Positions 23,011-64,000 of a DNA stretch of 64,000 nt are shown here, piece after piece. Both the position numbers and the translations under genes were made by a program. Numbering within the stretch: the first letter of the stretch is position 1; every line of letters begins with the position of its first letter. The notes under the pieces were generated by a model. The model was given only the letters and a program-made list of their open reading frames with translations, was not told the origin of the DNA and ran no database searches. The stretch is from Diplolepis rosae (lineage: Eukaryota; Arthropoda; Insecta; Hymenoptera; Diplolepididae): positions 1,674,001 through 1,738,000 of the forward strand of contig JAPYXD010000738.1 in NCBI GenBank assembly GCA_030998225.1, in the 5' to 3' direction.

Positions 23011-23523
23011 ATGCCTTTATCATCTCCAAAACGTACCTTCAAACGCCCTCGAGCAAGAAAAATTAAGCAAAAAACATTTGCACAAGAAATCAAAATTAAG
23101 GAAATTAAAAACGATATAGAATTTTCAAATTTTATCGAACAGTTGTTGGAAAAGACAGAGAAATTCATTTCAAAATCTGCCCATACGGTTGAAGAAACTT
23201 TAAACAAACCAGAAGCAGACAATTCTAAGTCAAAAAAAAATTCTGAACTTGAATTAATCAAAAATAATACTCCCCACCATTTAATCCCAATTATCGAATC
23301 TTTAAGTATTTACTCTGACTCAGAACTTGAAGGAAATTCGAAAAATCTTGTTTCCAATAAAGATCAAACATCGAATATCGAAATAATAACCCTATCTTCA
23401 GATTCAGGATCGGAAACAGAGACCCAAGAACCTATTTTCGTAACTAATAAAAACTTTTTACCCAAAATAACAAATATTTGCAGCTTAGGGAAAAATATAG
23501 TTAAATTAATTAAAGATTTTTGA
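23011..23523 (+). CDS. small ORF ahead of gag (pre-gag protein)
   Basis: 170 codons starting MPLSSPKRTFKRPRAR. The first 30 residues are strongly basic (nuclear localisation or RNA binding), followed by an amphipathic block (FIEQLLEKTEKFI), and the C-terminal half is Ser/Glu/Asp-rich (TLSSDSGSETETQEP) and looks like a casein-kinase-type acidic tract. It ends KLIKDF-stop. Copy B preserves the start, the blocks and the KLIK(D/E)F end, so this is a family gene separate from gag and not a mis-split gag. I know no homologue. It lies 95 bases upstream of the gag ATG. Confidence 0.6.
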   Translation: MPLSSPKRTFKRPRARKIKQKTFAQEIKIKEIKNDIEFSNFIEQLLEKTEKFISKSAHTVEETLNKPEADNSKSKKNSELELIKNNTPHHLIPIIESLSIYSDSELEGNSKNLVSNKDQTSNIEIITLSSDSGSETETQEPIFVTNKNFLPKITNICSLGKNIVKLIKDF

Positions 23524-23618
23524 AAAAAAATGGAAAAAATTGGTCCATTTTTGCAAAAAAAAGAGAAAAAAAGGGGGTAATATTAATAAATTATTTTCAA
23601 AAAATATGAGAAATATCA

Positions 23619-25451: not shown

Positions 25452-28400
25452 ACAATTGAATGCACCTAACTTTATTGAAAATAAAACAGAAAAAGTCGAT
25501 TTAAGTACAAGCAATACAATTCCTCATATAATTTTATCAGCTGAAGGATTGAAAAATCCTATACACATGATGATAGATACAGGAGCCGGATCAAATTTAA
25601 TCAAACAACAAGCAGTCAAAACAAACGTAAAAATAAATAAATTTGAATGTCTAAAGCTAACAGGTATAAATGAACACCCTGTATTTACACTTGGCCAAAT
25701 AAAAATCAATATTTTTGGCTACTTGACTACCCTCAACATAATACCGAACGAAGTACCTATTGAACATGATGGTATATTAGGTACAAAGTTTTTCAGAAAC
25801 AATAACGCAAAAATTAATTATGCAGAAAAACAGCTTGAAATAAATGACAAAATTTACCCATTCGAAATGCAAGAAACTATATTGGTACGAGCAAGAACAA
25901 TTTCAGATTTTTATGTAAGAATTAAAAACAGTGAACAAAAACAGGGATTCATTCCACAGTTACATCTATGTAATGGAGTTTATTTAGGAAATGCAATTGT
26001 CTCTAATAACAACAATAAAGCGTACATGAAAATATTCAATACAAACACACAACCTCAAAAGTTAATCATACCAACTCTTGAACTAATTGATTTTGAAGAA
26101 GTATCAATACACGAAGAAAAGGAAACCAATACAAAAACAAATCAGCCTACATTTTCAAAACAATATAGATTCCCTCCAGTACATAAAGAAGAAATTTCAC
26201 GACAAGTAAATGAGCTGATCAATAATAAAATTATCAAACCTTCACAATCACCATATAACACACCTGTTTGGATAGTACCAAAGAAATTAGACTCACATGG
26301 AAATAGGAAATGGCGAATGGTACTCGATTTTCGCAAACTTAATGAAAAAACGATTGGAGATTCTTACCCTTTACCGAATATTATTGATATTTTAGACCAA
26401 TTAGGATCAGCACAATATTTTTCTGTATTTGATCTTGCTTCAGGATTTCATCAAATAAAAATGAGTCCAGAAGATTCTCATAAGACAGATTTTTCAACCC
26501 CCTATGGCCATTATGAATTCGACCGTATGCCATTTGGTTTGAAAAATGCACCAGCTACTTTTCAGCGATTAATGGATTTGGTTTTAACACGACTTCAAGG
26601 AACTGAATTATTTGTCTACCTAGATGACATCGTTATATATGTAAATTCCTTAGAAGAACTCGACGAAAAATTTAACAAACTGATGGAAAGACTGAGCGCA
26701 GCAAATCTTAAATTACAACCAGATAAATGTGGATTTTTACGTCCAGAAGTTGCATACTTAGGACATATAATAGACAAAGAAGGAGTACGCCCAGACCCTA
26801 AGAAAATAGAAGCAGTAAAAAGTTTTCCAACTCCCAAAAACCCTAAAAATATTAAACAATTTTTAGGACTAGTTGGATATTACAGAAGATTCATTGATGG
26901 ATTCTCTAAAATTGCAACACCTTTGAACCAACTTTTAAAGAAAGATGTAAATTTCAATTGGTCAGAAAAGCAACAACAAGCATTTGAACTTCTAAAGGAA
27001 AAATTGTGTGAAGTACCCCTTTTACAAAGACCAGACTTCTCACAACCTTTCATTTTAACAACTGATGCGTCGGGATTCGCTATAGGAGGAATACTTTCTC
27101 AAGGTAAAATAGGTAAAGATAAACCTATAGCTTACACTTCTAGATCATTGAATGATTGTGAAAGAAAATATGATACATATGAAAAAGAAGCATTAGCAAT
27201 TATTTATTGTGTAACATATTTTCGCCCTTACTTATATGGACGAAAATTTACCTTAGTCACAGACCATAAACCATTAGTATGGTTTCAAAACTCGAAAGAT
27301 CCTTGCTCACGAGTAACTAGGTGGAAACTAAAACTGGCAGAATATGATTTTGATGTTGTATACAAAGCAGATAAAACTAATGTGAATGCAGACGCTTTAT
27401 CTAGAAACCGTATTGATTTAGATGATATTGAAAATGATGATATAAATACTAAGGGTAATATTGAAAAAAATTTTATTGAACAAAGAAATGCAAAATGCAT
27501 AGCTGATCTTAAATGTAAGAAAAAGGTACCAGAAACAAATCTTACGTGCTATGAAAAAATAAATTATGATGTAATTGAAGGAAATATTGAAGAAAATAAT
27601 TTTAAGGAATCCAAACAATTTATGAATAGGAAGAATGTATCTAAAAATAAGAATAATCGAAGAAATTATGATGGATTAAAAAATAAGGCTATTGAAGACG
27701 AAGATCCTGATTATAGTTATTTAAGAGGAAACGAAGATATACTGATAAATGATGGAAATTTAATTAAGAATATGAAAAATACGGAACAAAACGATGACAT
27801 AAATAATGAAGATATTGAGAAACAAAAAATTTATGAAAATTATGAAGAAATTAACCAATTAAGCGAAGGAACGTTATTTGAAAATATTGATAAACGCTAT
27901 TATGATGACTTTAACGAAGAAAATATTGATGGAAACGACACGGAAGAAATTAAACAATTATTAAAAGAAGAATACTTATTGAAAAATGATGATGACAATG
28001 ATGGAAAAAGTTGTATTGAATTAGATTTTAAGAATACAAAAAAAGAAGCAATATATGAAAACAAAGAACAAACTACTGAACAATTGGACGAGGAATTTAA
28101 TATAATTAATAAAAGGTTGATTAATATAGTAATGAATAAAATGAAAAATAAGGAAAATGGAATCACTTTTTGCAAAACAATTAATGAAGAAATTATTTCG
28201 GAAACATTTGTTATACAATTTTTAAAATGCGTTATGGACTCGATTCGAACTTTACTAGAAAATAAAGAAGAATGTTATGCTATGCAAACAAGGGGTCAGT
28301 TGAAAAATTTGAGAAATATGAATATGGACAAAAATGAAGATGCTAATAAAAATAAACTACTAAGAAATGTTGAAATAATGAATAAGGTACAAAAGAAACG

Positions 28401-30345
28401 TGGAAAGCCACGAAAGATTATTCAAGAAGTAAAATTACATGAACCAATAAAAAAAAGAGGTAGACCCAGAAAAGTTATGAATAAATCACCTGAGAATGAT
28501 AGAAAACGTAAATTTATAGAATCAGAAGACGAATCTGATTCTGATGCAGATTATGATACCAAGAAAAAGCCTATAGCAAATAAGAAGAAAAAACATGTTA
28601 AAGAAGATGGAAAATATAAAGAAGGAAGTTATTTTAAATCAAATTCTGACTTATCAAGTGAAACCGAAGAAGAAACCCAGGAAAATTTTCAAACTGTAGA
28701 ACAAGGAAACGAAAACGAACAACCGGATATACTAGAAATAGAGAATTCTGGAAACTCTGAGGAAGACGATTTTACAGACGAAAGGCCACCCCTAGAGCCA
28801 CCCCCTGATCAACCTTCAACATCCGGACTGCCTAAAACACAGAAAAATATAGTTGAATACCGAGACCAATTAACAATGAGAAAAGATAATTATGCGTATT
28901 TTGTAAGCAATAAAGGAGAACCTCGCGATGTAGGCTCTAAACTTTTAGAAAAACGTGGAAAATTACCTAACTTTAAAAATTTACAGAAAGGAATAGTCCA
29001 AAAATTACGTAAGGGAAATCAATACCATTTTGTACTTCCAATAGAAGACAAATTTAAGGCAAGTCTAGGAGAAACGACTAAAGATGTTAAACTATCGATT
29101 TATTCTCTTCACTCCATGGTAAAAGAATTAAATATTAAATCAATTAGTATTGCGAAATCACCACACATTAACAATGTTTTGTGGAAAGAAATTTTGGCTA
29201 CATTAAAAATAGCATTTTTGGATTCTACGATTAAAATCATAATTTGTAATGGAATCACACAATACCCTACAAAAGAGCAGAGAAATCAATTAATTGAAGA
29301 AGCTCATTCATCTGCAATTGGAGGACATAAAGGAGTAACGAAAACTTATAATAGAATCAGACAAAGATACTATTGGGAAAATATGAAATTGGACATACAA
29401 AAATATATACAACTCTGTTTACAATGTCAACTTAAAAAACTTGTTCGGGTCAAAACAAAGAACCCTATGATAATTACCGATACCCCAGGAACAGCATTTG
29501 AGAAAATTTCAATGGATATTGTTGGAAAGTTACCAACAACTTCATCACAAAATCAATATATACTTACTATTCAAGATAATTTTACTAAATACTCTTTAGC
29601 AATCCCACTCCCAAATCACCAAGCTGGAACAATAGCAGACGCTTTTGTTAAAAAATTTATCTGCATATATGGATCACCAAAAGCGGTTTTAACAGACCAA
29701 GGAGCAGATTTTCTAAGCAATTTAATCAGAAAAATGGCAAAACGATATCGAATACGTCAGTTTAAGACTACTGCTTATCACCCCCAATCAAATGGATCCT
29801 TGGAAAGATCCCATCACGTTCTTAAAGAATATCTTAAACAATTTATCGAAAATAATACAGAATGGGATGACTGGATTGAATTAGCAATGTTTTCATATAA
29901 CACAAGTGTTCATGAAGGAACGAAATGCACACCTTATGCATTAGTTTTTGGAAAATTAGCACTTTTACCATCAGGCGATCCTTTACCATAACACGAAACA
30001 ATGGAAGCTTACGATATGTACTTGACAAAATTGATTAAAAAACTACATGAAATGCGTGGAATAGCAATAAAAAATTTAATAGCAGCTAAAGAAAAATAAA
30101 AGGAATATTACGACAGAAAAATTAATCCACAAAATTTTAAAATCAGATGTAGTGTATTTTTACTGGAAGGTGGAGAACTAAAGAAATTCGAAAATCAATA
30201 CTCAGGACCATACGAAGTACTTGAAATATTAGGCAAAGGAAACATAAAAATTTCAGTTAAAAATAAACCTAAAATCGTTAATATTAATAGACTCAGACTT
30301 TCATGTATAACCCGTCCAACAACATATCAGAGGAAAAATATTTAA
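25393..30345 (+). pseudogene. pol polyprotein of copy A, two nonsense codons near its end
   Basis: The open part runs 25393-29991 (1532 codons); the same frame goes on to 30345 but has TAA at 29989-29991 and again near 30097. Domains: aspartic protease (DTGAGS, residue about 62); reverse transcriptase (FVYLDDIVIY, Asp pair 411-412); RNase H (TTDASGFAIGG, about 558, ending ADALSRN); then about 560 residues of Asn/Glu/Asp/Lys-rich insertion with two AT-hook-like motifs (KRGKPRK and KKRGRPRK, about 1002-1026); then integrase with its zinc-binding EAHSSAIGGHKG...CLQCQ and D1375, D1435, E1471 (D,D35E). Integrase ends with NQYSGPYEV...NINRL. Pol is in the +1 frame relative to gag. Apart from the late stops it is remarkably intact. 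Confidence 0.92.
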
Positions 30346-30373
30346 AATTGAATAAAAATGATTGTAGATCACA

Positions 30374-30529
30374 ATGGAACAAAAACATCGCCAACGCATT
30401 GACTTATTGTGTGATTTAATCGTTCGCCAAGTTGATATACAGGCATTATGAGCTTTGTTAAGCGATTATGGAGATTTGGAAACACAAAGAATTTTTACGT
30501 CCAAAAATGATACCTTTATACAAAATATG
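30374..30529 (+). pseudogene. CARD-only gene remnant, copy A
   Basis: The ATG at 30374 lies 6 bases after a splice-acceptor-like attgtag and 29 bases after the pol frame. It opens MEQKHRQRIDLLCDLIVRQV and is clearly related to the CARD protein of copy C (HRKRIDKYCDLLV). After 25 codons there is a TGA where copy C has a conserved Trp. A short further stretch (ALLSDYG) is still recognisable, then the similarity decays. It occupies the same position, directly after pol, as in copy C. Confidence 0.8.
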
Positions 30530-31478
30530 TAAAAATCCAACTAATATCTCAAACAATTGTTCAAAGAAATCAACGAAAAAAAATTACAATTATCAGAAAA
30601 TTTTTTAACTTTTTCTCATAAACGAGGTTTGATCTGTAAACCTTTTTCCCATCTAACAAATAACTCTTCTTTCAGGTCAAATACTAATAGTCTTTGTTCT
30701 CTTTTCTAGGAAACAGTCATTCAAGAAGCATTTTGTCCGAAAGACATTTTATTCATTTCAGAATTAAAGTCCATTATTTGTCCCAAATTTTTTACAAGTC
30801 AATTTTTATGATTACCATATGAAAAAAAGAAATCAGATCATTTAACCAATATTTATTTCCAACCTTTGTAAAATTGAATTTTATTTTTGGGAGAAGCTAG
30901 TTATTCACTGTTTTTCGAGGATACTCGCAAAGTACTTAGTTTCCAAAGAACACTAATCGAAGGAAACTAAAATATTCATTAAAAAGTGAAATTTTATTGA
31001 TAAAGTATTACTAATAAAAAAAGCAAACAACAGATAAAATAAAAGATTATCTTTCTCCCTTAACAATACAAATATTTTGAACTTTCTTGGAGATTTATGG
31101 ATATTTTTCATGCACATAATTTACTCGCATTAAGAAAATTTTCTCGTGTACTATGATAATTATCAATAACGAAAATTTTCCTAAAAATTTTCTTAAGGTA
31201 ATATATTCCCTTCTGCTATGGAAATAAATGAATAATATGTAAAGAAAAAACACTTATTTAGATGTGCATTGAATGTATATATCAAGTTTTTACGTGAAAT
31301 GAATCTTATCAATGATATTCTAAAGCAGAGGGTCCTCTAAAATAATATATAAGGTATCTATTTCGGAGTTTGAATATAAAAAACAATGAATGTCATTAAC
31401 GACTTAAGCTGACGTTTTGATGATATAAAAAGTAAGCTTGAAACACGATTTTACGGGCTTAAATGTTCAAATTAATCA
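30530..31478. other. decayed region between CARD and dsRBD genes, copy A
   Basis: No open frames. In copy C the equivalent interval is about 7.4 kb and holds both envelope genes, the tandem dsRBD gene, the antisense gene and the Cys-rich pair, so this copy has lost nearly all of it. Confidence 0.6.
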
Positions 31479-31778
31479 ATGTGTAAATTTCCTAGTAATA
31501 TACTAACACTAATAGCTATATGTACTATAAGAATAAAAAAACAAAACAAAAGAGAAGCCAAGCATAATTCAGCACGAAAGCTATTAGAGTTTCTGTACAA
31601 GGACTATTTATTTAGTGAACAAAGAGAGCCCGAAAATAAATTTAAAAAACCTGTAGAAAACGACTCCGAAAAAATTAAACTATATAAATGGACAGGTACA
31701 TGCGAGGGTTGTTATCAAAGAGGTCACAAACCAGTAAAGTGTCATGGCCCAAAGCGTAATAAAAAGTTTGTAGAGTAA
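31479..31778 (+). pseudogene. dsRBD plus zinc-knuckle protein, copy A (5' part decayed)
   Basis: From about residue 25 the frame reads KREAKHNSARKLLEFLYKDY, the C-terminal helix of a dsRNA-binding domain, and then WTGTCEGCYQRGHKPVKC, a CCHC knuckle (C-x2-C-x4-H-x4-C). Both parts align with 55295-55723 in copy C, with the same spacing. The front of the dsRBD is lost or frameshifted upstream of 31479. It lies 160 bases upstream of the polypurine tract and is the last gene of the element, as in copy C. Confidence 0.8.
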
Positions 31779-31922
31779 ATTTTAAAGTTTCTGTAAAGAA
31801 AGATAATAAATTTTATTCAGATAGATATATGATTTTCACGCGATGTGACACATTTTTATTCATAAATTTAAGTAAAGTGGACAAGTAAGTTCGAACATGT
31901 TAATATCATCACCATGTTCAAA

Positions 31923-31936
31923 CAAAAGGGGGGAGG
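31923..31936 (+). other. polypurine tract, copy A
   Basis: An aaaaggggggagg run directly in front of the 3' LTR start tgtcacgtcc. This is the plus-strand primer site of reverse transcription; copies B and C have equivalents. Confidence 0.85.
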
Positions 31937-32138
31937 TGTCACGTCCCGTAACTATCACAAATACGATTGTGTTAACCAACTTTATACGAAAAATTGATAG
32001 AAGCAAAAATACAAAAACACAAAAATATATATATGTGTGTGTGTTTTGTATGTGTAATAGACATATAAAGAATAAAGCTATTTAATTATATGTGTTCTTT
32101 TTTCAAACAAATAATGTTAATTAAATATTTTGGAAAAT

Positions 32139-52899: not shown

Positions 52900-53130
52900 A
52901 TTAACACCTTGAGATTTCTATGGTATGAAGTAAAATTTTGACAAATATCATATTAATAAAATACTTCGAAAAAACGTTTAAAATACGTAACATATTTCAC
53001 ATGAAAATTTCAGTATGAAAATTGACCTGTATATTGAAATTAACATGCTAAAAGTGTTACGTATTTCAAAAACTTTTAGACGTATTTTACTAAAATGGGA
53101 TGTTTTTCGATGATTCCTTATATCGGAGAA
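52900..53130. repeat. second palindromic MITE-like element
   Basis: The block taaaatacttcg..aaaatacgtaaca (about 52960) pairs with tgttacgtatttc..gacgtatttta (about 53055). Related pieces lie at 38640 and 40070. Confidence 0.6.
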
Positions 53131-53312
53131 ACCCTACTGTATATATTATATCTTATATAATATATATTATAAAACTGACTTTAGTTATTTCTTGTAATTT
53201 AATACTAAAATTCTTGTCAATTTTCTAATAGTGTACATGTGAACTGAATTTTCTCAGTTACTAAATTTGTTTTTGATTACAAATAAAAAAAAAATTTAAT
53301 TTCTCAAAGCAG

Positions 53313-55078
53313 TGTGACGTCCTAAGTTTTAAATTAATATAAATATTTCCTACATAAAGTCTAGAGCCAATTACCCTAACTATGTTCCTCTGTTTATTGT
53401 TAAAATTAACAATTAACCGGGTAGAGGACAAGCCAAATGAATCAAATTACAAACTTTGTTAATAATAATTTATTATAAAAATACAAATTTTATTTTAACC
53501 CAAGCGACTTTTTAGTTGTTGGTTGCAGGCTGTTTTTCTTTGGTTGGTCGAGTCTGATTGGTCCAACCCTAAAGAAAAACACACCGTGAGTCTAAAGGGC
53601 TCAAAAGAAAAGAGAACTTTAATAAAAACAAGTTATTTGACTTACCGGTTGTTATTGATGAGGTGGCCTCTTGAAAGCGATAATCCTTTAAGCTCTGTGT
53701 ATCCTCTGCTAATCGGGTACCTCCCCTAATTATCTTTGTTCACCAACAGTGGCAGGTCAATCCTTAGTTTAACAGGTATCCTTATTTTGATGCCTCGATT
53801 ACAATGACACTAAATCCAGTTTTATTGAAACTCACTCCGTTCTTATTATATTGGTTTTCCCGAACACGTGGAAATTACGGCCACTTAGATTTATTGCGGT
53901 ACGGCGACGAAAACCGGTTCTAGCGATGCTGCTTGATTGTACGCTCCCTTAGACTCGCTTCGACTCAGACTCCGACGCGCTTAGACTTGTTTAGACTCAG
54001 ACTGATCTTTAGGCCTTGCAGCCTGGCTTATATTGTCGTCTGTAGTCTCAACTCGTAGGTAGAAAGTATGGGAATTTGAGTTCCATGGTTTCAATAGCTT
54101 TTTCGAAGTCCATTAGAATCTTAGGTGGCAGTGTGGTGAGTTGAGACTTCGGGCCAGTTTGCTGGTGTGCTGCGTTGGTGAGCTTAGGGACTCACACCGA
54201 TTTTCCAAGTCCGTGTGGGTCATGCTTTCATGGTGTGGGTGTACTCACATCTTCTCAAGGGCTGTGTAAACCCGTATCATCAGGTTTTTAGGTAAATTTA
54301 GTCGCAAGGGTCAATGACATTGTTTGTATACATAGGTAAGTAATACAGTAATTATAATACAATTGTTGTACATAAATGGTTATTGTTATTTGTTTTAATT
54401 CTATTAATCTTTATATTTAAACATTGTTTTTGTTTATAAAATAACATTAATAATAATAATAGTGATTTGAATAGTTCTTAAAAGAACGTATTTTATAATT
54501 AATTGCTGATTGTTGATTAACATCAAATAAGAATATTAACAATAATGATAATTATTATAAACATTATTATTAGAACATTTGAATTATTATAATATTTGTT
54601 GCAAATCTTAATAACAATATGAAATAATTATAATGAAAGTGATTGATAATTATTGCAAATCAAGAAATTGAAGTAACATTGTTATTATTTAATATTTGTT
54701 GCATTTTGACAATTAATGTTAATAACAATATTAAATATTAATAATAATAGAGATTAATAATAATTTTAAATATAAAGGTTGAAGTAATATTGTTGTTAAA
54801 TAACATTTGTTGCATTTCGTTAATTGTTATTTTTAACAATAGTAATAATAATAGTTAATAATAATAAAAGGCAATATTTGTTTTAATTAGTATTTTATCA
54901 ATAAAATCAATTGTTTATTGATATTTTAGTTAATAGTAATAGTGAAATTATTTATAAAAACTGTTACATGTATCTAGCAAAAATATTTATAGCAACAATA
55001 AAACGTGTTATATGATATAATAGCATAATAATTTTATATGATTATAATATATAATATAACTGTCATGGATACGTGACA
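53313..55078 (-). repeat. 3' LTR of copy C
   Basis: 1766 bp with TG...CA ends (tgtgacgtcc at 53313, acgtgaca to 55078), an imperfect inverted pair. On the minus strand it has a TATA-like AATATAAG near 54034 and AATAAA at 53474-53469. The middle is AT-rich (54300-55060). U5 runs from about 53450 to 53313. Confidence 0.85.
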
Positions 55079-55091
55079 CCTCCCCCCCTAA
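55079..55091 (-). other. polypurine tract, copy C
   Basis: On the minus strand a taggggggagg-type run stands directly in front of the LTR, as in copies A and B. Confidence 0.85.
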
Positions 55092-55294
55092 ATTCGATCG
55101 TGGAGGTGATAGAATAGAACTGTAACGATCGAATCCTCGGTAGAGGAAAAATTAAAATGAGTTCATTATTTCTCTGAAAAAATATTGTTATAGGATAAGA
55201 GGTGTCTCGCATATGATTCCTATCGAAATATTATTTATGAAAAGTTCATATGTATGCAGTCATAATTTATATAATAATGGAAATATATGATATT

Positions 55295-55723
55295 TTAATT
55301 AAGTCGCAGGTTTTTATTTCTCGTGGGTCCTTTACACGTATAAATCAAGTGACCTCTTCGATAGCACTTCTCGCAAGCCCCAGTCCATTTATATAACAAT
55401 TTACGATTTCCAAAACTGTTTGTTTTGATTTCTGAACCGTTTTGTTCGCTAAAGACATAATTTTCGTTTAACAATTCTAATAATTTTCTGGCTGCAGCGT
55501 GTTTTGCCTGTTTGATATTTGGAGCTTCGTCACTGCTACATGTATATTTAGAACAATCTTTAGTTAACGTACATTTTGCGATGAAAGTCGGAATATTAAA
55601 TAAATTGAAAGATGTTATTTCGTATTTTGGAGGTGTAAAATCGTATTCTACGCTTAATTCATTAATCAATTGCATAGGGCTAGCGACTGTGGCTGCATTT
55701 ATTGTTCTAAATGGAACTTCCAT
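55295..55723 (-). CDS. dsRNA-binding domain plus CCHC zinc-knuckle protein
   Basis: 142 residues from the ATG at 55723; the frame is open to 55738, but a splice acceptor (tatgtttcag|) ends at 55730, so the second ATG is the likely start. Residues about 9-85 form a dsRBD: SPMQLINELSVEY (helix 1), TPPKYEITS and FIAKCTL (strands), KQAKHAAARKLLELL (basic helix 2). A 25-residue linker leads to CEKCYRRGHLIYTC, a knuckle with the exact C-x2-C-x4-H-x4-C spacing of retroviral nucleocapsid. Binding of dsRNA or structured RNA is expected; suppression of RNAi or a packaging role is my inference. It is the last gene before the polypurine tract, and copy A has a decayed homologue in the same place. Confidence 0.88.
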   Translation of the reverse strand: MEVPFRTINAATVASPMQLINELSVEYDFTPPKYEITSFNLFNIPTFIAKCTLTKDCSKYTCSSDEAPNIKQAKHAAARKLLELLNENYVFSEQNGSEIKTNSFGNRKLLYKWTGACEKCYRRGHLIYTCKGPTRNKNLRLN

Positions 55724-55934
55724 TTTTTTCTGAAACATACAGAGAATACATTTTATAGAGAAAGACCAAAAGTTGCTAATTGATTAAGAATAGAATATCG
55801 TTCTATGGAGTATGAGTTGTTCTTAACATAAAATCTCGTAGTGAAAACTTACATTTATCGTTATTATAGTAGTATTAAAATTATAAAAGGGTGGCATGAT
55901 TTTGTTTGAATGTTAAATTTATTATTTTTCATTA

Positions 55935-56051
55935 TCAATTTTCGAAGATTATTGTTGAAGCTTCAGAATCATAATCGACCTCATTAGGTTCCGAATCCGA
56001 TTCTGAATCGGATTCTGTAAACGACTGCTGTACTACATGTGAATTTGGATC
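55935..56051 (-). pseudogene. acidic tail continuing the Cys-rich 2 frame past a stop
   Basis: Directly after the TAA that ends the ORF at 56052 the same frame continues for 38 codons with an acidic Ser/Glu/Asp stretch (FTESDSESDSEPNEVDYDSE) before a TGA at 55935. This looks like the original C-terminus, cut off by a recent nonsense change, or reached by readthrough. Confidence 0.55.
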
Positions 56052-56414
56052 TTATACACTTAGTTTGAAATCAATAAAAGCTCTACAATTCTCGCAATTA
56101 TCTGCTCTTTGTCTAAAAAAATATACTGGTTTGTCGCAAGCATGACAACTGGTATCTGATAAATTGCTGAATGCCGTACATCTGTCCGTAAGTTCACAAA
56201 TATTATCGCGTTCGTCGTCAGTTATTAAAAAATAGCAGTCAACGCATAACGGTCTTCCTAGTATTGGATTGAATAATACTTGTTTATCTGCGTGTATTTT
56301 AATGCAACAAAAATAATTCATGTATAAACTATGTAAGAATGTAGAATAAAAGCTCAATAGATTTGTTTTGTTTTTTCGTGCAATTTTGGGAGCAGTCGTC
56401 TCAGTTGGCAGCAT
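56052..56414 (-). CDS. Cys-rich accessory protein 2
   Basis: 120 residues from the ATG at 56414 (MLPTETTAPK), which lies 4 bases after an excellent acceptor (tttatatctcctcgcag|). The frame upstream to 56492 is a poly-Phe shadow of the pyrimidine tract. Three paired cysteines follow: LCVDCYFLITDDERDN, SCHACDK and NCENCRAF, preceded by CC in FCCIKI. The layout matches the neighbour at 56615-56983, so the two are duplicates. Small zinc-binding protein, function unknown. It ends at a TAA after FKLSV, with an acidic in-frame extension behind it. Confidence 0.65.
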   Translation of the reverse strand: MLPTETTAPKIARKNKTNLLSFYSTFLHSLYMNYFCCIKIHADKQVLFNPILGRPLCVDCYFLITDDERDNICELTDRCTAFSNLSDTSCHACDKPVYFFRQRADNCENCRAFIDFKLSV

Positions 56415-56614
56415 TTTCCTGCGAGGAGATATAAAAAAAAAAAAAAATTGTTTTATTTTTAATATTTTGGGCATACCAAAGTATGCTTTCAATAGTCATG
56501 CCATTAATAAGGAAAATCATCTGCGAATTATTTATTATTTGGATTCATGCGTGATACATATGACAAATAATTTTCCCCATTTCCCTTTTGCTATACATGC
56601 GTACTAAGATAGTA

Positions 56615-56983
56615 TCAAATTTCAATTTCTATTCCATTTTGTATGAGATTCATACATTGAGTACATTGAAAGGCTGTACAACAAATGGATATTATTTTGA
56701 TGTTACAAAAGAAACAGACTGTATTAAATCGGCGTATTTGTCCGATTAATTGCCAAGTGCTTCGACGTTCATAGCTTTCTTTTTCATAATCTGACAATTT
56801 GAGGAAACAATATTCACAGATACGCATTGCCGAGTGAGTTGATTTTACATAGATCAATGGTGTATTTTCGTCTAATTTGAAACATTTGGTGATGAATAGT
56901 ATGTCATAAGTTTCTGGGTGATGTTCTAAGCAAATACCGTCGAAAGATTTCTCGTTTTCAGGTATTTCTTGAGGAGGTTTCAT
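56615..56983 (-). CDS. Cys-rich accessory protein 1
   Basis: 122 residues from the ATG at 56983, 4 bases after a strong acceptor (tttctatcatttttag|). It shares with the following gene a KCF/FCC-IK block, then ICEYCFLKLSDYEKES (compare LCVDCYFLITDDERDN), VCFFCNIK and QCTQCMNL. The six paired cysteines suggest a zinc-stabilised fold. No signal peptide or membrane segment. I do not recognise the family. The open frame, good acceptor and paralogue support a real gene. Confidence 0.7.
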   Translation of the reverse strand: MKPPQEIPENEKSFDGICLEHHPETYDILFITKCFKLDENTPLIYVKSTHSAMRICEYCFLKLSDYEKESYERRSTWQLIGQIRRFNTVCFFCNIKIISICCTAFQCTQCMNLIQNGIEIEI

Positions 56984-57321
56984 GATTCTAAAAATGATAG
57001 AAAGAGAGAAAATTTTTGGTTATAGGCAAGTTACTAGTCTGAGTGAAAAAAGTTTACTGATTTATGATTTTACTGCTTCTAGGATTTATGACGTTGGTTG
57101 GGAGGCATCTTCTTTTTGAAAGTTATTCACAGTGTGATAATTGGAGTTTCTGAGGTTGTCGTTTTTTTGACAAAATTTTAGAAGGGTTTAAGTCAAGAGG
57201 TTTGTGTGTTTTTATGTATTAGAAGTAAAAATAGGGAAAGTTTTGGAGAAATGAAGCTCGAAAGGGTTAACTTTGAGAGTGAGAAGAGTGTTAGTCGAAG
57301 TTTAGATCCTTTGAGTAAAAC

Positions 57322-58394
57322 ATGGAATCGTTTCAGAAGGAAAATGTTGCAAATGAGTTTTCGGAATTTTTCGGAAACGAGTTTTTATCGTCGGATGATT
57401 TTAATTTTGATTCTTTGATTGATTTTGAGGTTCCAGAGTCTAGTTTGAGGTTTTGCGAAGGCGGGGAAAATAGTGAAGTGTGTGTAGATAGTGACTTTTG
57501 GGCTGATTTAGATCGAACGTTCTTTGGGGAGTCGGAAAAAGACGGCGAGACTCTTGATGAGTCAATACTTTTTAATCTGAATGAAGGACAAGAGAAAAGT
57601 GTAAGTGCTGTGCATATGGATGTTGATGAATCTATTAGTGAAAATAGAAATGCTGAGGTTAATGAAGTTGTTTCTCCAATTGAAGACTCTGTTGTTCAGA
57701 CGGAGAATATACGCGATTCATTTGAGGATGTGAATCAAATGCCTCGATATGAGTTGAGACAATGGTCTCATGATATATGGAAGGAAGTGACACATTTCAA
57801 CATTTTTATAATAAGGATTGTTGAAGGTGTAAACCATCATGGTCCCGGATGGTGGGCTGATTTTCCTTTGGCACAACAGGAAATGTTAAGAGCTCAAGTC
57901 ATTTCTGAGTACCATTCGCAACCGTCTGGTGTATTTAAAATAAGTGAAAGGTTTTGTCATTTTAATGAAGAGCGTCTTCTTTTGCTGGTAAGCATTTATA
58001 TATATATATATATTTATTAATTTTTTTTTATAAATATAGATGAAAGAATATATTTGAATTGTTTATTGCAGATTGATAGTGATCGCGTTAGGTATGACAA
58101 TGATGACAAACGAGTTTTATTGTCGCCTAAATTTTTGGTTTTAAACAATGGTATGCGTGTTCAATTGCCTTGGCTGTGGGCTGGCTTTGACCGTTCTTGG
58201 CGTTACCGTAGAGCAGCTGAGGTTAAAAAACAATTGGACGAAGGTAGAATGGAAGTGATAGTTAAGGTTGACAGAATGCGATTTAGAGTCGTAAATTCTG
58301 TACTTGAACAGGTAAATATAATCGAAAATAGAAATTGATTCATTTATGAATTTGTTTTTGAATTTTTATTATTTGTTTATAGTTTTTACCATGA
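57322..58394 (+). CDS. antisense three-exon gene within the retroelement
   Basis: Exons 57322-57987, 58072-58311 and 58383-58394 join in phase 0 to give 305 residues. Introns of 84 and 71 bases have canonical ends (CTG|GTAAGC...TTGCAG|ATT and CAG|GTAAAT...TATAG|TTT). The N-terminal 120 residues are very acidic with bulky hydrophobics (SSDDFNFDSLIDFEVPESS), like transcription activation domains. The C-terminal 180 residues look globular (ELRQWSHDIWKEV, GPGWWADFP, LPWLWAGFDRSWRYRRAAEV). I know no homologue. It runs against all other genes of copy C, between the F-type envelope and the Cys-rich pair. Introns antisense to the genomic RNA would survive retrotransposition. A regulatory protein, comparable in layout to antisense genes of some retroviruses, is an inference. 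Confidence 0.72.
57988..58071 (+). other. intron 1 of the antisense gene
   Basis: 84 bases, GTAAGC donor, TTTATTGCAG acceptor, with an AT microsatellite inside. Phase 0. Confidence 0.7.
58312..58382 (+). other. intron 2 of the antisense gene
   Basis: 71 bases, GTAAAT donor, TTGTTTATAG acceptor. Phase 0; the final exon adds only three codons and a TGA. Confidence 0.65.
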
Positions 58395-58489
58395 GGGGAA
58401 GAAGAAGACGAAGGAAAAAGTGAATGTGACAGTTAGTGACTGTGTTTTAAGTGAAAATATTTGTATATAAGTGAAAAACGAACGGATGA

Positions 58490-60361
58490 TTACACTAAAG
58501 TGTTCAGAAATTTTGGTTGTGAGTGTGTAGTTTTGAGCTGTTCAAGTTGGATTGGTTCGTTTTCCAGAAGGTTCAAATCTTGGTGAGTTACTGGAGGTTC
58601 CAGAGTTTTTAAATTTATCGCGTTTTTATGGATTTTTATGTATAGGCACAATCCGAATAGAATGAAGAGAAGTGAGATAATAATGAATACAATTGTTACT
58701 ATGAAAATGTAAAAAGATAATGTTTCAAAGTCCTTGCTGATTTCTGTTCTTTTATTATAAGACTTTTGAAACTGAAGAAATGTAAATAATTGTTGTTCAA
58801 GGGTAGATACTGAAATAATTTCATTATTATTCCAAGAACTGAATAAATTTTTGAGTAGTGGATTTGAGTTTAATGATAATTTGTAAAGATTAGGAGCAAT
58901 TTTATGTAGTGAAGTTGAATGGCCTGTAGTGGGGGTAATTTTTAGAAGAGATTTTGATTTTGTGTTAATCTGTGGCAAGACTAAATTATTTGCTTCAATG
59001 ATGCAATCGGATTGTGTTTGTAAAATACCAGCGTTATTGACAGTAATCTGAATGGAAATTTTTTGTGGACAATGGATTCGAATTTTTGTAGGAAAAGGAG
59101 TGGAGTATAACCATCCTCGATAAAATTTAAGTGGAGTCCATTGGATGTTATTAGTTATTTTTAGATAGAATTGGCACTATTATAGTTTATTTTCTGTAAG
59201 GAGTGCTGTTTCACAAATTTGGTTGTTTAATGTGCTCCATTCAGGGGGAGTGAAAGTACAAATTTTTCCAATTTGTGTTGAATGACAGGTATCATAGAGA
59301 TAATCGTCGAAGGTAAAATAAGTTTGTTTGTCATTTGAAAGTGCCAAATAGGAAATTTTAGATTTGATAAAAATGGATGTAGTCAAGTCTGAATTAAATG
59401 TGTGATAAATAGGGATTGAATAGGGTTTGAATATTTGATATTTCTTTTCTGATATAAATGGAAGAGAGAGTGAGATAACTAATTTCTTCTCATAAAAGAA
59501 AAGTTGGACTTTAGCAAATATTAGAAGTTCAGAAAGAGTGAGGTCGTTTGCAGTTTGGTATGGAGAACTTATGGATGCTAGATTCTTGATTGAATTGAAA
59601 GGGATTAAAGACAGTAGAGTAGGATGCCAATTACCATTAATTGCAAAAGCTAAATTAGTTGATAGCTGTTGTATACTGACAATATAATGGTGTGTAGCGT
59701 CTTTGATGTTAGTTATCCATGATACTTCGAACATTTCGTACAAGGAATCTGTTGAATTTGGAAACTTTAGATGCCAGTTTTTAAATCTAGCAATTGTGTT
59801 TTGGGCATGGATGATTTTTTTACAAGTATCTGTTAGAATAGAAGGAAAAATATAAATCTGTTTTTCGTACCAGTCAAAGGTAGAATTATCCGACTTTTGC
59901 AGTTTGATAAGTGCTGTTTTAAAATTTTGAAAATCATCTTTCAATGTGATGTCGACAGTATTTTCTAGAATTAAAGAAATTTCGTTTAAAACTGATTTTA
60001 TTTTTCTTTCTTTAATTATTATTTGTGCTGTTATTTCGTTGAGAATGCAGTTATTTTGACAATGGACAGTCAGTTCTTTGAAAGTGTCAAGTATTTCGTA
60101 TCCAGAATTCAAAAAGCTTAATATATTGATATAAGAAAGAAGATGCCAGCTGCCAGAGGTAAAAGTTATATTGTCTAATGGCTCGTAATAAATACTAGAA
60201 GCGTTTGAGATAGAAGTTATAATGAAATTGTCAGCTTCATAAGATTGTATAGGATTTAATAACACATATACCATGCTATTAAAAATTAAAACTAAAATAA
60301 GAGTTGCGTGCGTAAGAGATTCATGCTTATCGTCTAACAATTGTAATAAGGATTTGATGGT
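58490..60361 (-). pseudogene. F-type (errantivirus) envelope protein, split by two stops
   Basis: A single frame of about 620 codons is broken only by adjacent TAA and TAG at 59182-59177. An acceptor (gtgggtttag|) at 60362 enters the frame without an ATG for 29 codons, so the start codon is expected in an upstream exon, as with spliced errantivirus env. A signal-like stretch (ATLILVLIFNSMVYVLL) is followed by SIYYEPLDNITFTSGSWHL, the F-protein N-terminal signature, and later by KLVISLSLPFISEKKY..KPYSIPIYH. The C-terminal part has a long membrane segment (YIFIVTIVFIIISLLFILFG) and a cytoplasmic tail. I see no furin-type RxxR and no fusion peptide. It may be degenerate, or translated by readthrough of a double stop, which would be rare. 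Confidence 0.78.
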
Positions 60362-61026
60362 CTAAACCCACATTTCATGCACTTTTTATAGGAATTTGTA
60401 GGTGATTGGTTGTATGAGGTTGAAGGTTGAGGAATTGGGTGGATTGGTAAGTTATGTCTAATTCTTTTTTTGAAGGGCAGATTATTTATTTGTTTTATAT
60501 TAGAACGTCCATTTTTGTTTGATTGTGAAAGTGGATTGGTTTTTAAAGAATTGGATTCTAAATTTACAGTCAAATTTTGAAAGTCATTTTGAAGATTACT
60601 AGCTCTTTCTGTTTCTATTTTCTTAAGTATAGAATGAATGAGTTTACAAGCTGCCTGGTCTTTTGCTTGTTTTGGTGTGCTACCAATTCCACTTTCTTTC
60701 ATTTGATCAGTTGTACAAATGCTCATATAGGTTGAGGATGTATTTGAATATGTGATACGGAAAGTTAACATTTGTGGTTTTGAGATTCGGAATTTTTTAC
60801 AAGTATTTTGTAATTCTTTAAAGGCATTTAACTGGAAGGATTGATAGGAATTGGAGACTTGGGCTTCTATTTCTGGTATCATTTTCAATAATGTTTCAGT
60901 AACATGCTGCTTTGTTAGTTCAGGATCATATCCCAGCCCAGTTACTTTTTGTTTTTTATACTCTGCAGTGATTTCAAAAAATAATTCATTTTTCTTATCC
61001 TTTTTTAATTTATAAGAGTAGTTCAT
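60334..61026 (-). CDS. tandem dsRNA-binding-domain protein
   Basis: 230 residues from the ATG at 61026, 1 base after an acceptor-like aagtaatcag| and 13 bases after the glycoprotein stop. Residues about 1-50 (YSYKLKKDKKNELFFEITAE ... LTKQHVTETLLKMI) resemble a dsRBD lacking helix 1. Residues about 70-140 form a clearer dsRBD: LQNTCKKFRISKPQMLTFRI strands, GIGSTPKQAKDQAACKLI helix 2. The rest is a Ser/Asn/Pro-rich linker and a degenerate C-terminal knuckle (CMKCGFRP..C, without the His). Two dsRBDs are typical of R2D2/Loquacious-type RNAi cofactors and of viral suppressors of RNAi. Suppression is inferred, not shown. The end overlaps the envelope frame by 28 bases. Confidence 0.85.
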   Translation of the reverse strand: MNYSYKLKKDKKNELFFEITAEYKKQKVTGLGYDPELTKQHVTETLLKMIPEIEAQVSNSYQSFQLNAFKELQNTCKKFRISKPQMLTFRITYSNTSSTYMSICTTDQMKESGIGSTPKQAKDQAACKLIHSILKKIETERASNLQNDFQNLTVNLESNSLKTNPLSQSNKNGRSNIKQINNLPFKKRIRHNLPIHPIPQPSTSYNQSPTNSYKKCMKCGFRPSNPYYNC

Positions 61027-61039
61027 GCTGATTACTTTT

Positions 61040-63052
61040 TTAAAAGTGAAAAGTTTGAGGTATATTAGATAGTTCTGTTAGTTCACTGTGTGGATATAGA
61101 CTGGTGGTTTCGTTTTTCTTTTGTTTACCTGTTTTAAAGTTTTTTTCAAGTAAATGTGTAGATATATCGGGTGCTGAAGGATTCGTATCAAGTGGTTCTT
61201 GTTGTTGGTCCTGTGCCCTTTGGTTTTCTCTACCTAAATGTAATAAAAGGTTAGTTACGGAGTCCCAAATTGCTCCTATTAAGTGAAATGACCAGCCAAA
61301 AACAGTGTAAAGTGCATAACCGTGAATTATGGTATCAATTATTATTTTAATGCCTCTTATCATAATGATTACTCCTATAAATCCTGCGCTAACTGTGCCG
61401 AAATTCGAGAATACTGTCCATATTTTTGTCCAAGTTGAGTGAGCAATTTTTTCAATAGTTTCCTCATCTAAAAGATTCATTAACGAGATTCCTTGATTTA
61501 GAGTGGATTGACCCATGATTCCGCGGGCTAATGTGTTGAGAACCATCGGTTTTTCCGCGGGAAACATTATGTGATCGCGCAGTTTGTTTAAATCCGATTG
61601 AGAATATATTCCGCTTGTTGCAAGATGAGCCGGATTTGTATATCGCCATGTGGGTTTTGTCAAAGGTTTCATTATTTCTGGGGGTAAAGATTCGATTGGA
61701 TTTGGAATTAATTTATACCAAGCATTTCCCAAAAAATACATAATTGGAACAAAAGAGTTACAACTTGTTTGAGTGCCTTTGTTAGTTAAGATGTGAGTTC
61801 TTGGTGTAATAAAAGAAGTCTGATTTCCTCTATAGATTGGTAGGTGTAGATAACATTCTTCTGTTTTGCGATATTTAACCTCAATTGGAATGCATTTAAT
61901 TATATGCACAACTTCTCCTGCAATTATTGACATGTAACCTGGACCTTTCATTAAATGATAAGCAAATTCATCAGGAGCTTGAGTAGCTAAAATTAATGTA
62001 TTTTTAAAAACTTGTTGCTCTAATTTACATTTTTGAGTAAAAACATCATGATATAGTTTGTTCACTTCATTACGAATGTGTCGTTCAATATATACAAATT
62101 TTGAATTGATGTATGTAAATAAATCCATATTTTGGACAAGTGGTTTCTTGTTTAGAAGCGTTGAGGATCCTGGTATGATTTCAAGTATTAATAATTTTAG
62201 ATGTTCAGTTCTAATCATTAAAAGATTACAGACTGGATTTTTTGCTTTTTGTGTTAAAACGAAAGTTATGTCTTGAGTTGTAAGTGAATATAATTTGTTT
62301 GGGCTTTGTGTTTCATTATCTTGAGTTTTATTTGCGTAACCTTCATATAATATTTCATATTTATTAAAATTGCAAATGTCATCAGGCAGAGGATTCCAAA
62401 AAGTTTGTCCTCCTTCCATGTCGACACAATGGGATTCTGAAAGCGAACATGTTATTCCTGATCGTAAGTGTATTTTATCTGTATTTAAATTCACGTTAGC
62501 ATAGTATTCTTGAAGTGTGATTTTTAATACGCCTTGAACGATTGCGTTATTCCACGTTCCAAAAGGATCTGAATATTGAGTTCCAGAGCAATCTCCATTC
62601 ATAGCCAAAGATCCGGCTAGTAGTACGCTGTGATAAGATGTTCGATTAATTTTTAAATTTGAGATTTGTAGGTTTTGGCCCAAGGATATTGTACCTGATG
62701 AGTGTAGTGTATCACATTGTTGGTGCGAAATTTCATGTATATATTCACTTTGTCCATTAGTTACTGCTGAAATATGTGAATGCATTCCACAGTAAGATAT
62801 AGTACGTCTAATTTCGATCTTGCATTGTCTTACTTGGGTGAGTGTGAAATCACTTATTTGTAAAAGTTGAATGTAAGTTGTTTCTATGTGTAATTCAGGT
62901 TCAGGTATATCACATTCTCCTACCTCAAGAAGAGACAGTGTTGTTAAATTAAGTTGATTGGATCCACAGTCGTATCCGATGATTGCTTCTACAGTTGTTG
63001 TCATTAATATCAGCATGACTAAGGTTGTCAGTTTTTTCTTTCCGGACCCCAT
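61040..63052 (-). CDS. jingchuvirus-like envelope glycoprotein
   Basis: 670 residues, intact, starting 2 bases after an acceptor (ccttttctag|). A signal peptide (LTTLVMLILMTTTVEA) precedes IIGYDCGSNQLNLTTLSLLE, an N-terminal signature I associate with chuvirus/jingchuvirus glycoproteins and with their relatives captured by arthropod LTR elements. The ectodomain is rich in Cys and in N-x-S/T sites. A C-terminal membrane region (VSAGFIGVIIMIRGIKIIID, then GYALYTVFGWSFHLIGAIW) is followed by a Gln/Asn-rich tail. It should mediate receptor binding and fusion at the host membrane. A decayed relative lies at 6000-7269. The viral-family label is from recall and needs a profile search. Confidence 0.82.
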   Translation of the reverse strand: MGSGKKKLTTLVMLILMTTTVEAIIGYDCGSNQLNLTTLSLLEVGECDIPEPELHIETTYIQLLQISDFTLTQVRQCKIEIRRTISYCGMHSHISAVTNGQSEYIHEISHQQCDTLHSSGTISLGQNLQISNLKINRTSYHSVLLAGSLAMNGDCSGTQYSDPFGTWNNAIVQGVLKITLQEYYANVNLNTDKIHLRSGITCSLSESHCVDMEGGQTFWNPLPDDICNFNKYEILYEGYANKTQDNETQSPNKLYSLTTQDITFVLTQKAKNPVCNLLMIRTEHLKLLILEIIPGSSTLLNKKPLVQNMDLFTYINSKFVYIERHIRNEVNKLYHDVFTQKCKLEQQVFKNTLILATQAPDEFAYHLMKGPGYMSIIAGEVVHIIKCIPIEVKYRKTEECYLHLPIYRGNQTSFITPRTHILTNKGTQTSCNSFVPIMYFLGNAWYKLIPNPIESLPPEIMKPLTKPTWRYTNPAHLATSGIYSQSDLNKLRDHIMFPAEKPMVLNTLARGIMGQSTLNQGISLMNLLDEETIEKIAHSTWTKIWTVFSNFGTVSAGFIGVIIMIRGIKIIIDTIIHGYALYTVFGWSFHLIGAIWDSVTNLLLHLGRENQRAQDQQQEPLDTNPSAPDISTHLLEKNFKTGKQKKNETTSLYPHSELTELSNIPQTFHF

Positions 63053-63170
63053 GTCTAGAAAAGGATTTTTCTAGTTAACAAATTTTTATTCATTTTCAGG
63101 AATAAAATTTATTTGTTCACTGATTTGTTATTCTTATTTGTATTGGGTATAATAAATACTTTTTCAATAC

Positions 63171-63452
63171 TTATTCAATGAGATCCAAAATTTCTGCTAA
63201 TAATCCTTGTCCAGATTGTCGTAAACTTAGTATAAAATTGTGGTATGCAAGTGGACCACGAGTTTTTATTGCGAGTATTATGTCTTCTATAGTTGATGGA
63301 TTTGTTATATCATAAAGCCATAGTGGAATATTATGATCATCTCGGTTGAAGATTTTATTTCTTATTAGGAAAGGCCAAATTGTTACTATATCTATGTTGT
63401 TGACAAGAAGATCGCAATATTTATCTATTCTTTTTCGATGGATGGGATCCAT
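63171..63452 (-). CDS. CARD-only protein (Dronc-like CARD)
   Basis: 93 residues from the ATG at 63452, which lies 13 bases after a splice acceptor (aactactttcag|). The open frame starts upstream without an ATG. The whole protein is one caspase-recruitment domain: MDPIHRKRIDKYCDLLVNNI (helix 1), IVTIWPFLIRNKIF (helix 2), DDHNIPLW (helix 3), STIEDIILAIKTRGP (helix 4) and AYHNFILSLRQSGQGLLAEI (helices 5-6). The RGP-A-x4-F/I..LRxSG signature fits CARDs of initiator caspases, and the NIPxW and TRGP features remind me of insect Dronc. A lone CARD would be expected to act as a decoy in apoptosome assembly. Copy A has a broken homologue at the same place. Confidence 0.88.
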   Translation of the reverse strand: MDPIHRKRIDKYCDLLVNNIDIVTIWPFLIRNKIFNRDDHNIPLWLYDITNPSTIEDIILAIKTRGPLAYHNFILSLRQSGQGLLAEILDLIE

Positions 63453-63483
63453 TGAGGAACGATATCTGAAAGTAGTTTCCAAT

Positions 63484-64000
63484 TTAGTCTGCTTTATTTA
63501 ATCGAGCACGTTTTAGTCGATTAATATGTACTACTTTTGGCTTATTTTTAATTTGAATTTTAACATTGCCTTTTCCTAAAACTTCTAAAATTTTATAAGG
63601 ACCAGAATATTGATTTTCGAGTTTTTTAGGTTTTGGACCACTTAGTAAAAATACTTCTTCATCAACGTTGAAATTTTGTGGGCTTATATTTCTATCGTAG
63701 TACTTTTTTGATTTTTCTTTTGCTGCAATAAGATTATCTCTAGCAATTGCTCTTATTTCATGAAGTCGGGTTACTAATTTAATCAAGTAATCATCATATG
63801 TTTCTAGTTTTTCATGTTCTGGAAGGGGTTCGCTTGAAGGTTGTCTGGCTAATTTACCAAAAACTAATTCGTATGGACTGCAACGAGTTCCTTCATGAAT
63901 GCTTGTGTTGTAAGAAAATGTAGCTAGTTCTATCCAGTCATCCCATTCAGAATTTTTACTAACAAATTGTTTTAAATATTCAGCAAGTACATGATGAGAT
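63484..64000 (-). CDS. pol, integrase C-terminal part (partial)
   Basis: The minus-strand frame is open from the right edge to a stop at 63484. It begins just after the integrase catalytic Glu region (HHVLAEYLKQFV) and continues through the SYNTSIHEGT and SPYELVFGKLA block, LIAAKEKSKKYYDRN and the C-terminal NQYSGPYKILEVLG...VVHINRLKR. It is highly similar to the end of pol in copy A, but without A's two stop codons, so copy C probably has an intact pol. The CARD acceptor lies about 17 bases after the stop. Confidence 0.92.
   Translation of the reverse strand, partial: SHHVLAEYLKQFVSKNSEWDDWIELATFSYNTSIHEGTRCSPYELVFGKLARQPSSEPLPEHEKLETYDDYLIKLVTRLHEIRAIARDNLIAAKEKSKKYYDRNISPQNFNVDEEVFLLSGPKPKKLENQYSGPYKILEVLGKGNVKIQIKNKPKVVHINRLKRARLNKAD

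Follow-up and report, generated by a model that had tools for sequence, protein, structure and literature searches.

A Ty3/gypsy endogenous retrovirus of Diplolepis rosae with eight genes between pol and the 3' long terminal repeat

Complex retroviral genomes, with regulatory genes and genes that block host defences, are known from vertebrates. As far as the available parts of the sources go (here and for all published systems compared below), insect errantiviruses carry gag, pol and an F-type Env between long terminal repeats (LTRs) (PMC12992720), mosquito Anakin elements are BEL/Pao elements with gag, pol and one chuvirus-type glycoprotein (PMC7642597), and gypsy elements with type III fusion glycoproteins have been described with no mention of additional genes (PMC13172572). 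In bdelloid rotifers, LTR elements hold captured open reading frames (ORFs), the ORF3s, downstream of pol, with spliced messages and, in one lineage, a glycoprotein of negative-strand viruses (PMC5408684); for gypsy elements, capture of these glycoproteins was reportedly looked for and not clearly found (PMC10084718). In plant Retand/Grande elements, the interval from pol to the 3' LTR contains antisense ORFs, with a TRP28 domain, for which a role in transcription regulation has been proposed (PMC11963269). Here, we describe an element found in a stretch of 64,000 nt of Diplolepis rosae contig JAPYXD010000738.1 (positions 1,674,001 to 1,738,000, hereafter the window; genome searches took in the 757.7-Mb assembly), which is probably a complete, recently integrated and now defective Ty3/gypsy endogenous retrovirus, organised like a complex retrovirus.

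Besides gag-pol, a single pair of LTRs encloses eight genes in this element, seven in sense orientation and one antisense and intron-containing. Their order on the minus strand runs from the end of pol through CARD, GP (a chuvirus-type glycoprotein), dsRBD2 (a predicted double-stranded RNA (dsRNA)-binding protein) and env, then past the antisense gene (on the plus strand) to the Cys-rich genes zn1 and zn2 and to dsk (a dsRNA-binding domain, or dsRBD, with a zinc knuckle), before the polypurine tract and the LTR. The element resembles errantiviruses in that its LTRs enclose gag, pol and an Env that is probably F-type, a type seen only via the Envs of a subfamily, D, of the same genome; unlike them, as one env and no further genes are described there, it also has a chuvirus-type glycoprotein and CARD, dsRBD, Cys-rich and antisense genes (PMC12992720). 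With Anakin, it shares a chuvirus-type glycoprotein downstream of pol in an LTR retroelement, but Anakin belongs to BEL/Pao, whereas the present pol is gypsy-type by its Pfam domains and GPY end and is accompanied by a second envelope and six further genes (PMC7642597). The elements of PMC13172572 likewise combine a gypsy-class pol with a type III glycoprotein, and ours differs by its additional genes. Gene capture downstream of pol is common to this element and those of bdelloids, although the latter have one ORF3 per element rather than eight genes (PMC5408684), and the present element is a case of the glycoprotein capture by gypsy elements that PMC10084718 did not clearly find. As in Retand/Grande, the region from pol to the 3' LTR holds a coding gene on the opposite strand, but TRP28 is not matched and the present antisense gene has an intron (PMC11963269). 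In the literature searched, which does not cover the survey of env-carrying metazoan elements by Chary and Hayashi 2025, we found no LTR element that has a CARD gene, dsRBD genes or a pair of fusion glycoproteins; this is not proof of absence. Pieces are known singly in these sources (chuvirus-type glycoproteins in Pao elements, type III and F-type glycoproteins in gypsy elements, antisense ORFs in plants), and we rate the combination as new and unusually complex.

The coordinates of both LTRs give the provirus a length of 19,208 bp, of which 10,688 bp (the 3' 56%) lie inside the window; the upstream remainder (5' LTR, gag and most of pol) lies beyond the right edge of the window on the same contig (stretch L029). 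The initial annotation of this DNA, made from its letters, had proposed a polypurine tract and an LTR, with 53313 as the end point of the element. Both are confirmed: the polypurine tract can be read directly (55079..55089, minus strand), and the 3' LTR (53313..55078, minus strand, 1,766 bp, then a 4-bp target duplication) has a mate outside the window (L029 6755-8520), to which it aligns over its full length with 14 differences in 1,766 bp (99.2% identity). The LTR ends are TG...CA, and the same 4-bp target duplication is present on both outer flanks of the provirus. Two further LTR pairs, each compared over its fetched part, are 98.6% identical (1,371 aligned columns with 5 mismatches and one gap) and, in a copy of subfamily B2, 95.5% identical (1,150 columns with 4 mismatches and one gap).

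The C-terminal end of pol (integrase, 63484..63999, minus strand) matches PF22938 Integrase_p58_C (32.6 bits, cut-off 27). It had been described as intact, and it is open within the window, but the pol frame is broken further upstream in L029, which holds gag-like and pol-like ORFs; with two adjacent stops in env, this makes the window's copy defective. In another copy (L030), whose 5' LTR is followed by the same sequence, pol stays open for 1,572 aa, and reverse transcriptase (RT), RNase H and integrase follow each other in gypsy order, as they also do in copy A, a related element of the window. The TG...CA LTR pair, the polypurine tract and the target duplication, which is within the 4-6 bp range, are as in Ty3/gypsy (Metaviridae), and the integrase end of the window pol ORF carries a GPY motif of the GPF/Y type, treated as a gypsy hallmark (PMC12440569). 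By LTR features, Pfam pol domains and GPY end, rather than by an RT tree, the element is of the Ty3/gypsy kind. Troyka was rejected as its identity, given the CG...CG ends, 3-bp duplication and lack of envelope of that element in the available part of PMC12440569.

Could the ORFs between pol and the LTR have arisen by chance? Across 500 dinucleotide shuffles of the internal region (8.9 kb), the length of the longest ORF had a median of 107 aa, a 99th percentile of 174 and a maximum of 193. The region itself contains 5 ORFs of at least 200 aa (0.0 expected) and 10 of at least 120 aa (0.29 expected), and chance ORFs were rejected as an explanation; the seven sense ORFs and the antisense gene initially annotated beyond pol are all present. 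The lengths of CARD (93 aa), zn1 and zn2 are within the chance range, and these genes are supported by conservation between copies. Peptide-pattern scans of a viral and a genome contig collection yielded no relative, and a tblastn search against plasmids no match.

Alternatively, the genes might be chance neighbours, that is, fragments captured or inserted separately between the pol end and the LTR at one locus, a reading to which the crowding of the window with nested mobile elements and the presence there of copy A, without most of the genes, lend some support. A search with GP scored 66 places of 2,315 first-look candidates, 22 of which, the window's included, are B-like (75-100% identity). 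We scored ten pieces (env counting as envA and envB, the antisense gene as two exons) in stretches of ~10 kb around 20 of the 21 other B-like places (L009-L028). In each of the 20 stretches, the pieces that remain keep the order and orientation seen in the window, and 12 have all ten. Presence among the 20 and, in brackets, the number with at least 90% of the length in one alignment without a stop are 18 (14) for CARD, 20 (10) for GP, 19 (9) for dsRBD2, 17 (7) for envA, 16 (11) for envB, 17 (10) and 16 (11) for antisense exons 1 and 2, 17 (14) for zn1, 16 (12) for zn2 and 17 (11) for dsk. Five stretches have at most six pieces or have lost env (L009, L023, L025, L027 and L028). The last B-like place (L034) is strongly decayed, with fragments of CARD, GP, dsRBD2, envA and the antisense gene still in order. 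This collinearity refutes separate insertions, and the single LTR pair with its one target duplication and the counterparts in subfamily D also stand against them, so that chance neighbourhood is extremely improbable. Since the ORFs lie in one LTR pair rather than in separately bounded insertions, and the other copies scored do not lack most of them, the initial proposal of one replicating unit withstands the refutation test set for it and is well supported; the element is almost certainly a single bounded unit.

Copy A had been used to argue that the gene set is ancestral. It lies at 22899-31940 on the plus strand, with gag ORFs and a pol that stays open for 1,532 aa, as far as 29991, and then goes on in a different frame; its 3' part comprises a CARD relic (30374-30448), a dsRBD-knuckle gene (31386-31778), a polypurine tract and an LTR start. 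GP, env, zn1, zn2 and the antisense gene are absent. Since copy A keeps only the CARD relic and the dsRBD-knuckle gene, the argument from it is weak, and support comes from other copies instead. Ancestry of the set holds for the seven sense genes, which have counterparts in subfamily D, but not for the antisense gene, for which no match was found in either D stretch read (L032 and L033).

The copies fall into several subfamilies. B2 (L021, L022 and L024) is close to the window's element in CARD (96% in the two copies that keep it), GP (87-88%) and dsRBD2 (77-79%), and diverged in env (60-76%), antisense exon 1 (37-38%), antisense exon 2 (66-72%), zn1 (59-61%) and zn2 (35-36%). Four B copies (L014, L017, L018 and L020) have a third zn2 type, with 97-100% mutual identity and 28-32% to that of the window, and their dsk is nearer to that of B2 (81-82%) than to that of the window (69-77%), so that modules seem to have been exchanged between subfamilies. 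At least 44 GP places, at 65-67% identity, belong to subfamily D, 14 of the 44 with one identical score. Its genes, read in two of the 44, are at 50-53% identity to those of the window for CARD, 65-66% for GP, 28-31% for dsRBD2 (with a stop in L033), 28-32% for env, 25-31% for zn1 and 37-52% for dsk (frame-broken in L033); the zn2 counterpart reaches 22-28% by alignment, the window zn2 giving no tblastn match there. Both stretches have an additional dsRBD-like ORF (21.0 bits), followed by a knuckle-like ORF. Among 2,571 candidates, at least 77 scored places carry a D-type Env; all of these are 96-100% identical, 62 of the 77 have no stop, and ten, the query's own included, score as identical. 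Subfamily D is high-copy and nearly uniform in sequence.

The initial annotation had suggested looking for purifying selection between copies, and dN/dS is indeed below 1 wherever it could be calculated (ten pieces for B against B2, eight of nine for D against D). These are pairwise Nei-Gojobori estimates, rough as several dS exceed 1. For the window against B2 (L021; integrase piece from L031), dN/dS is 0.054 for integrase, 0.052 for CARD, 0.083 for GP, 0.124 for dsRBD2, 0.186 for envA, 0.207 for envB, 0.471 for antisense exon 1, 0.225 for zn1, 0.283 for zn2 and 0.200 for dsk (one L021 stop left out). Between L032 and L033, it is 0.246 for CARD, 0.131 for GP, 0.214 for dsRBD2, 0.093 for the extra dsRBD ORF, 0.242 for the knuckle ORF, 0.130 for env, 0.140 for zn1 and 0.139 for dsk, zn2 being saturated. 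Sorted by codon position, the differences speak for coding in CARD, dsRBD2 and zn1, in the second antisense exon and in the C-terminal part of the first. When unconstrained drift was simulated to the observed identities of P0002 (env), P0005 (antisense exon 1) and P0011 (CARD), stop-free runs were obtained in 0 of 300, 0 of 300 and 12 of 300 cases, respectively. Sequence comparison thus shows a gene set under purifying selection that recurs collinearly in many copies.

Two of the genes encode glycoproteins of unrelated families, one chuvirus-type and the other probably baculovirus-F-type. GP (61040..63052, minus strand) is an open frame of 670 aa encoding a chuvirus-type (Monjiviricetes) fusion glycoprotein, as initially annotated; its match to PF24664 (E 9.7e-251) is full-length, covering model positions 3-649 of 653, and the D-subfamily GP likewise matches (E 8e-248 in L032). 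The second envelope gene, env (58490..60274, minus strand, its start taken to be the ATG that follows a 3' splice site), appears as two ORFs, envA and envB, because of the two adjacent in-frame stops (59177-59182); its relatives P0001 and P0002 are unbroken. An F-type env had been proposed. The window Env and its relatives P0001-P0003 have no Pfam match, but the D Envs, at 28-32% identity to the window Env, match PF12259 Baculo_F (E 4.6e-23 in L032 and 2.9e-17 in L033), so that, via this counterpart, the second envelope is probably F-type by descent.

Both glycoproteins are probably used as envelopes, perhaps for different target cells. Each is under purifying selection in both comparisons (D values 0.131 and 0.130), each keeps a membrane segment on its C-terminal side, and a D-type Env lies 3.1-3.4 kb downstream of at least 18 of the 44 GP places of D. 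A unit in which only one of the two is a working envelope, the other being a passenger or serving, for example, in superinfection block or cell-to-cell fusion, appears unlikely. It would fit the far better conservation of GP between B and B2 (0.083 versus 0.186 and 0.207 for the second Env), which indicates that the two do not evolve alike, and also the Baculo_F match of the D Envs, confined to the C-terminal half of the model, and the RXXR-type cleavage site, which was not found in the second Env of B2 (L021) or of D L033 and occurs at one place in D L032.

The antisense gene lies on the plus strand, where an ORF spans 57322-58020. Exon 1 (57322..57987), with relatives P0004 (96%) and P0005 (55%), encodes an acidic N-terminal part and the start of a conserved domain. 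It is followed by an intron of 84 bp (57988..58071), whose GT...AG ends are conserved and whose length varies among the 8 copies compared, and by exon 2 (58072..58311), where differences from L021 by codon position are 16, 12 and 38 (p 1.4e-4). A further donor at 58312 and a possible short last exon from 58383 were read by eye only. The protein has an acidic N-terminal half and a conserved domain interrupted by the intron. Because this intron exists on the opposite strand alone, the genomic RNA would retain it. The gene has 69 places in the genome and, with 42 of them compared, lies downstream, on the opposite strand and within 9.5 kb of 19 of the 22 B-like GP places. A protein search with its product found three proteins of unstated context. 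Neither a Pfam family at E<=1 nor a bZIP domain was found in scans of window exon 1, P0004, P0005 and L021 exon 1, exon 2 being covered only within P0006, and there was no match in the PDB. A 30% match at contig C278:284288-284776, with a frame open over 224 aa, is a possible distant relative or source.

In human T-cell leukaemia virus 1 (HTLV-1), HBZ is an antisense regulator of transcription, encoded between pol and the 3' LTR. The present gene resembles it in strand, position and predicted splicing, and differs in that no bZIP was found. By this analogy, the antisense gene, which has an intron, encodes an acidic N-terminal half and would be read from a separate promoter, might regulate transcription as HBZ does, a role that we propose tentatively.

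The CARD gene (63171..63452, minus strand, 93 aa) has six relatives at 59-98% identity. As single sequences, the window ORF scores 20.9 bits against PF00619, below the cut-off of 23.9, and P0008, P0011 and L032 score 16.6, 23.9 and 15.5, P0009 having no match. The single window sequence had ten matches in the PDB, eight of them initiator-caspase CARDs and two light-harvesting chains, whereas all nine matches of a profile of seven relatives are CARDs of caspase-9, CED-3 and Dronc (best E 0.0041). The initial CARD assignment is weak for the window ORF alone and is favoured by the caspase-type profile. P0011 is 88% identical to the CARD relic of copy A over 25 residues, so that a sister group also has an intact CARD. 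A CARD-only protein could compete with the CARDs of initiator caspases and delay cell death, but caspase inhibition is a possibility for which we would give slightly less than even chances.

Two genes have dsRBDs. In dsRBD2 (60334..61026, minus strand, 230 aa), the PF00035 score is 16.6 bits, below the cut-off of 23, although its D counterpart passes with 42.5 bits, the match comprising two stretches of the protein; dsk (55295..55723, minus strand, 142 aa) combines a dsRBD (25.5 bits; 30.5 in D) with a CCHC-type knuckle of the gag-like zinc type. The proposed dsRBDs are thus recovered in the window for dsk and through D for dsRBD2, D's extra dsRBD-like ORF being below the cut-off. Similarity of the two halves of dsRBD2 is weak (23 of 1000 shuffles reach the score), as is that of its second half to dsk (18 of 1000). 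The Cys-rich genes zn1 (56615..56983, minus strand, 122 aa) and zn2 (56052..56414, minus strand, 120 aa) are paralogues by profile comparison only (probability 90, E 1.6e-6), the single sequences not being significantly similar (445 of 2000 shuffles reach the score); both are probable zinc-binding adaptors.

The dsRBD proteins would bind viral dsRNA and blunt Dicer-dependent RNA interference (RNAi), a role of some consequence here, since transcription converging from the sense and antisense strands would produce dsRNA. Somewhat better than even chances can be given to such RNAi suppression, and antagonism of host defence by the accessory proteins is, more generally, what we infer from their domains. 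The accessory proteins could instead serve replication, with dsRBD and knuckle proteins acting in RNA export, packaging or splicing regulation, CARD as a scaffold, zn1 and zn2 as transactivators and the antisense frame as a minor product. We find this improbable, though the association of a dsRBD with a gag-like knuckle in dsk, the help with RNA export that a complex spliced genome would need and the non-significant codon-position bias of whole antisense exon 1 would agree with it. Against it stand the dsRBD of dsk, whose nearest solved dsRBD in the PDB is that of Loquacious, a partner of Dicer (E 0.0022), the CARD profile, nearest to initiator caspases, and the codon-position bias of antisense exon 2 and of exon 1 in its C-terminal part.

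As to expression, full-length RNA would yield gag and pol, and subgenomic RNAs, spliced at 3' sites that lie shortly upstream of several ATGs, the sense accessory genes. When sites before 142 sense ATGs were ranked by a simple pyrimidine score, the top two were those 4 nt before zn1 (score 15) and zn2 (14), the third (13) being inside dsRBD2; others precede the ATG of dsk by 6 nt (12), of env by 1 nt (11), of GP by 2 nt (10) and of CARD by 13 nt (8). L021 repeats this pattern, and L032 and L033 have sites at similar places, mostly scoring 8-11. Spliced expression is quite likely; the sites fit it and are not proof.

Several points weigh against the reading of a complex retrovirus. Stops or deletions affect many copies. 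The window env and the antisense protein match no Pfam family, and the F-type match of the D Envs is partial, as described above. Neither zn2 (p 0.28) nor whole antisense exon 1 (p 0.22) has a significant codon-position bias. No splice site passes the filter before dsRBD2 in the window, and the scores of the sites preceding GP, CARD and, two in L033 excepted, every D gene tested do not stand out. For CARD, only one of the five relatives scanned alone (P0011) reaches the cut-off, and barely, and adding D sequences to the profile brought the best E to 0.012, with influenza PB2 chains among 28 matches.

Other features of the window include a third, decayed copy (copy C, 16301-19416 and 6353-7296, minus strand), made of gag-like pieces and a pol end, with a chuvirus-type glycoprotein relic 9 kb away from them; all of these may belong to one element. 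A mariner-type transposase (1484-2536, minus strand) is open over 350 aa (PF01359, E 1.1e-21), and more relics are present. The interval between RNase H and integrase is unusually long (~640 residues, rich in charged ones, in copy A at ~27350-29270; ~480 in L030) and has no Pfam domain at gathering score in either copy. ORFs 5' of the capsid-like gag part (window 23011-24212; L029 5239-5931) are common to copies, have no convincing Pfam match and may be further accessory genes or an N-terminal part of gag. Rfam at gathering threshold gave no match in 53000-64000, nor did ARAGORN.

Taken as a whole, these features raise the possibility, to which we give a little under an even chance, that an animal Ty3/gypsy lineage independently evolved the organisation of complex retroviruses, with two unrelated entry glycoproteins, a CARD apoptosome decoy, duplicated dsRBD suppressors of RNAi, a duplicated pair of zinc-finger regulators and an intron-bearing antisense regulator, its modules being exchanged between co-resident subfamilies, one of which expanded very recently. 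Insect elements are usually described as gag-pol-env, and the present family is far more elaborate. Its antisense gene illustrates a way for a retroelement to keep an intron, namely on the opposite strand only, and the presence of several co-resident subfamilies, one of them nearly uniform, makes selection and module exchange measurable. If true, this reading would represent convergent evolution of retroviral complexity and would provide handles on how an invertebrate retrovirus confronts RNAi and apoptosis.

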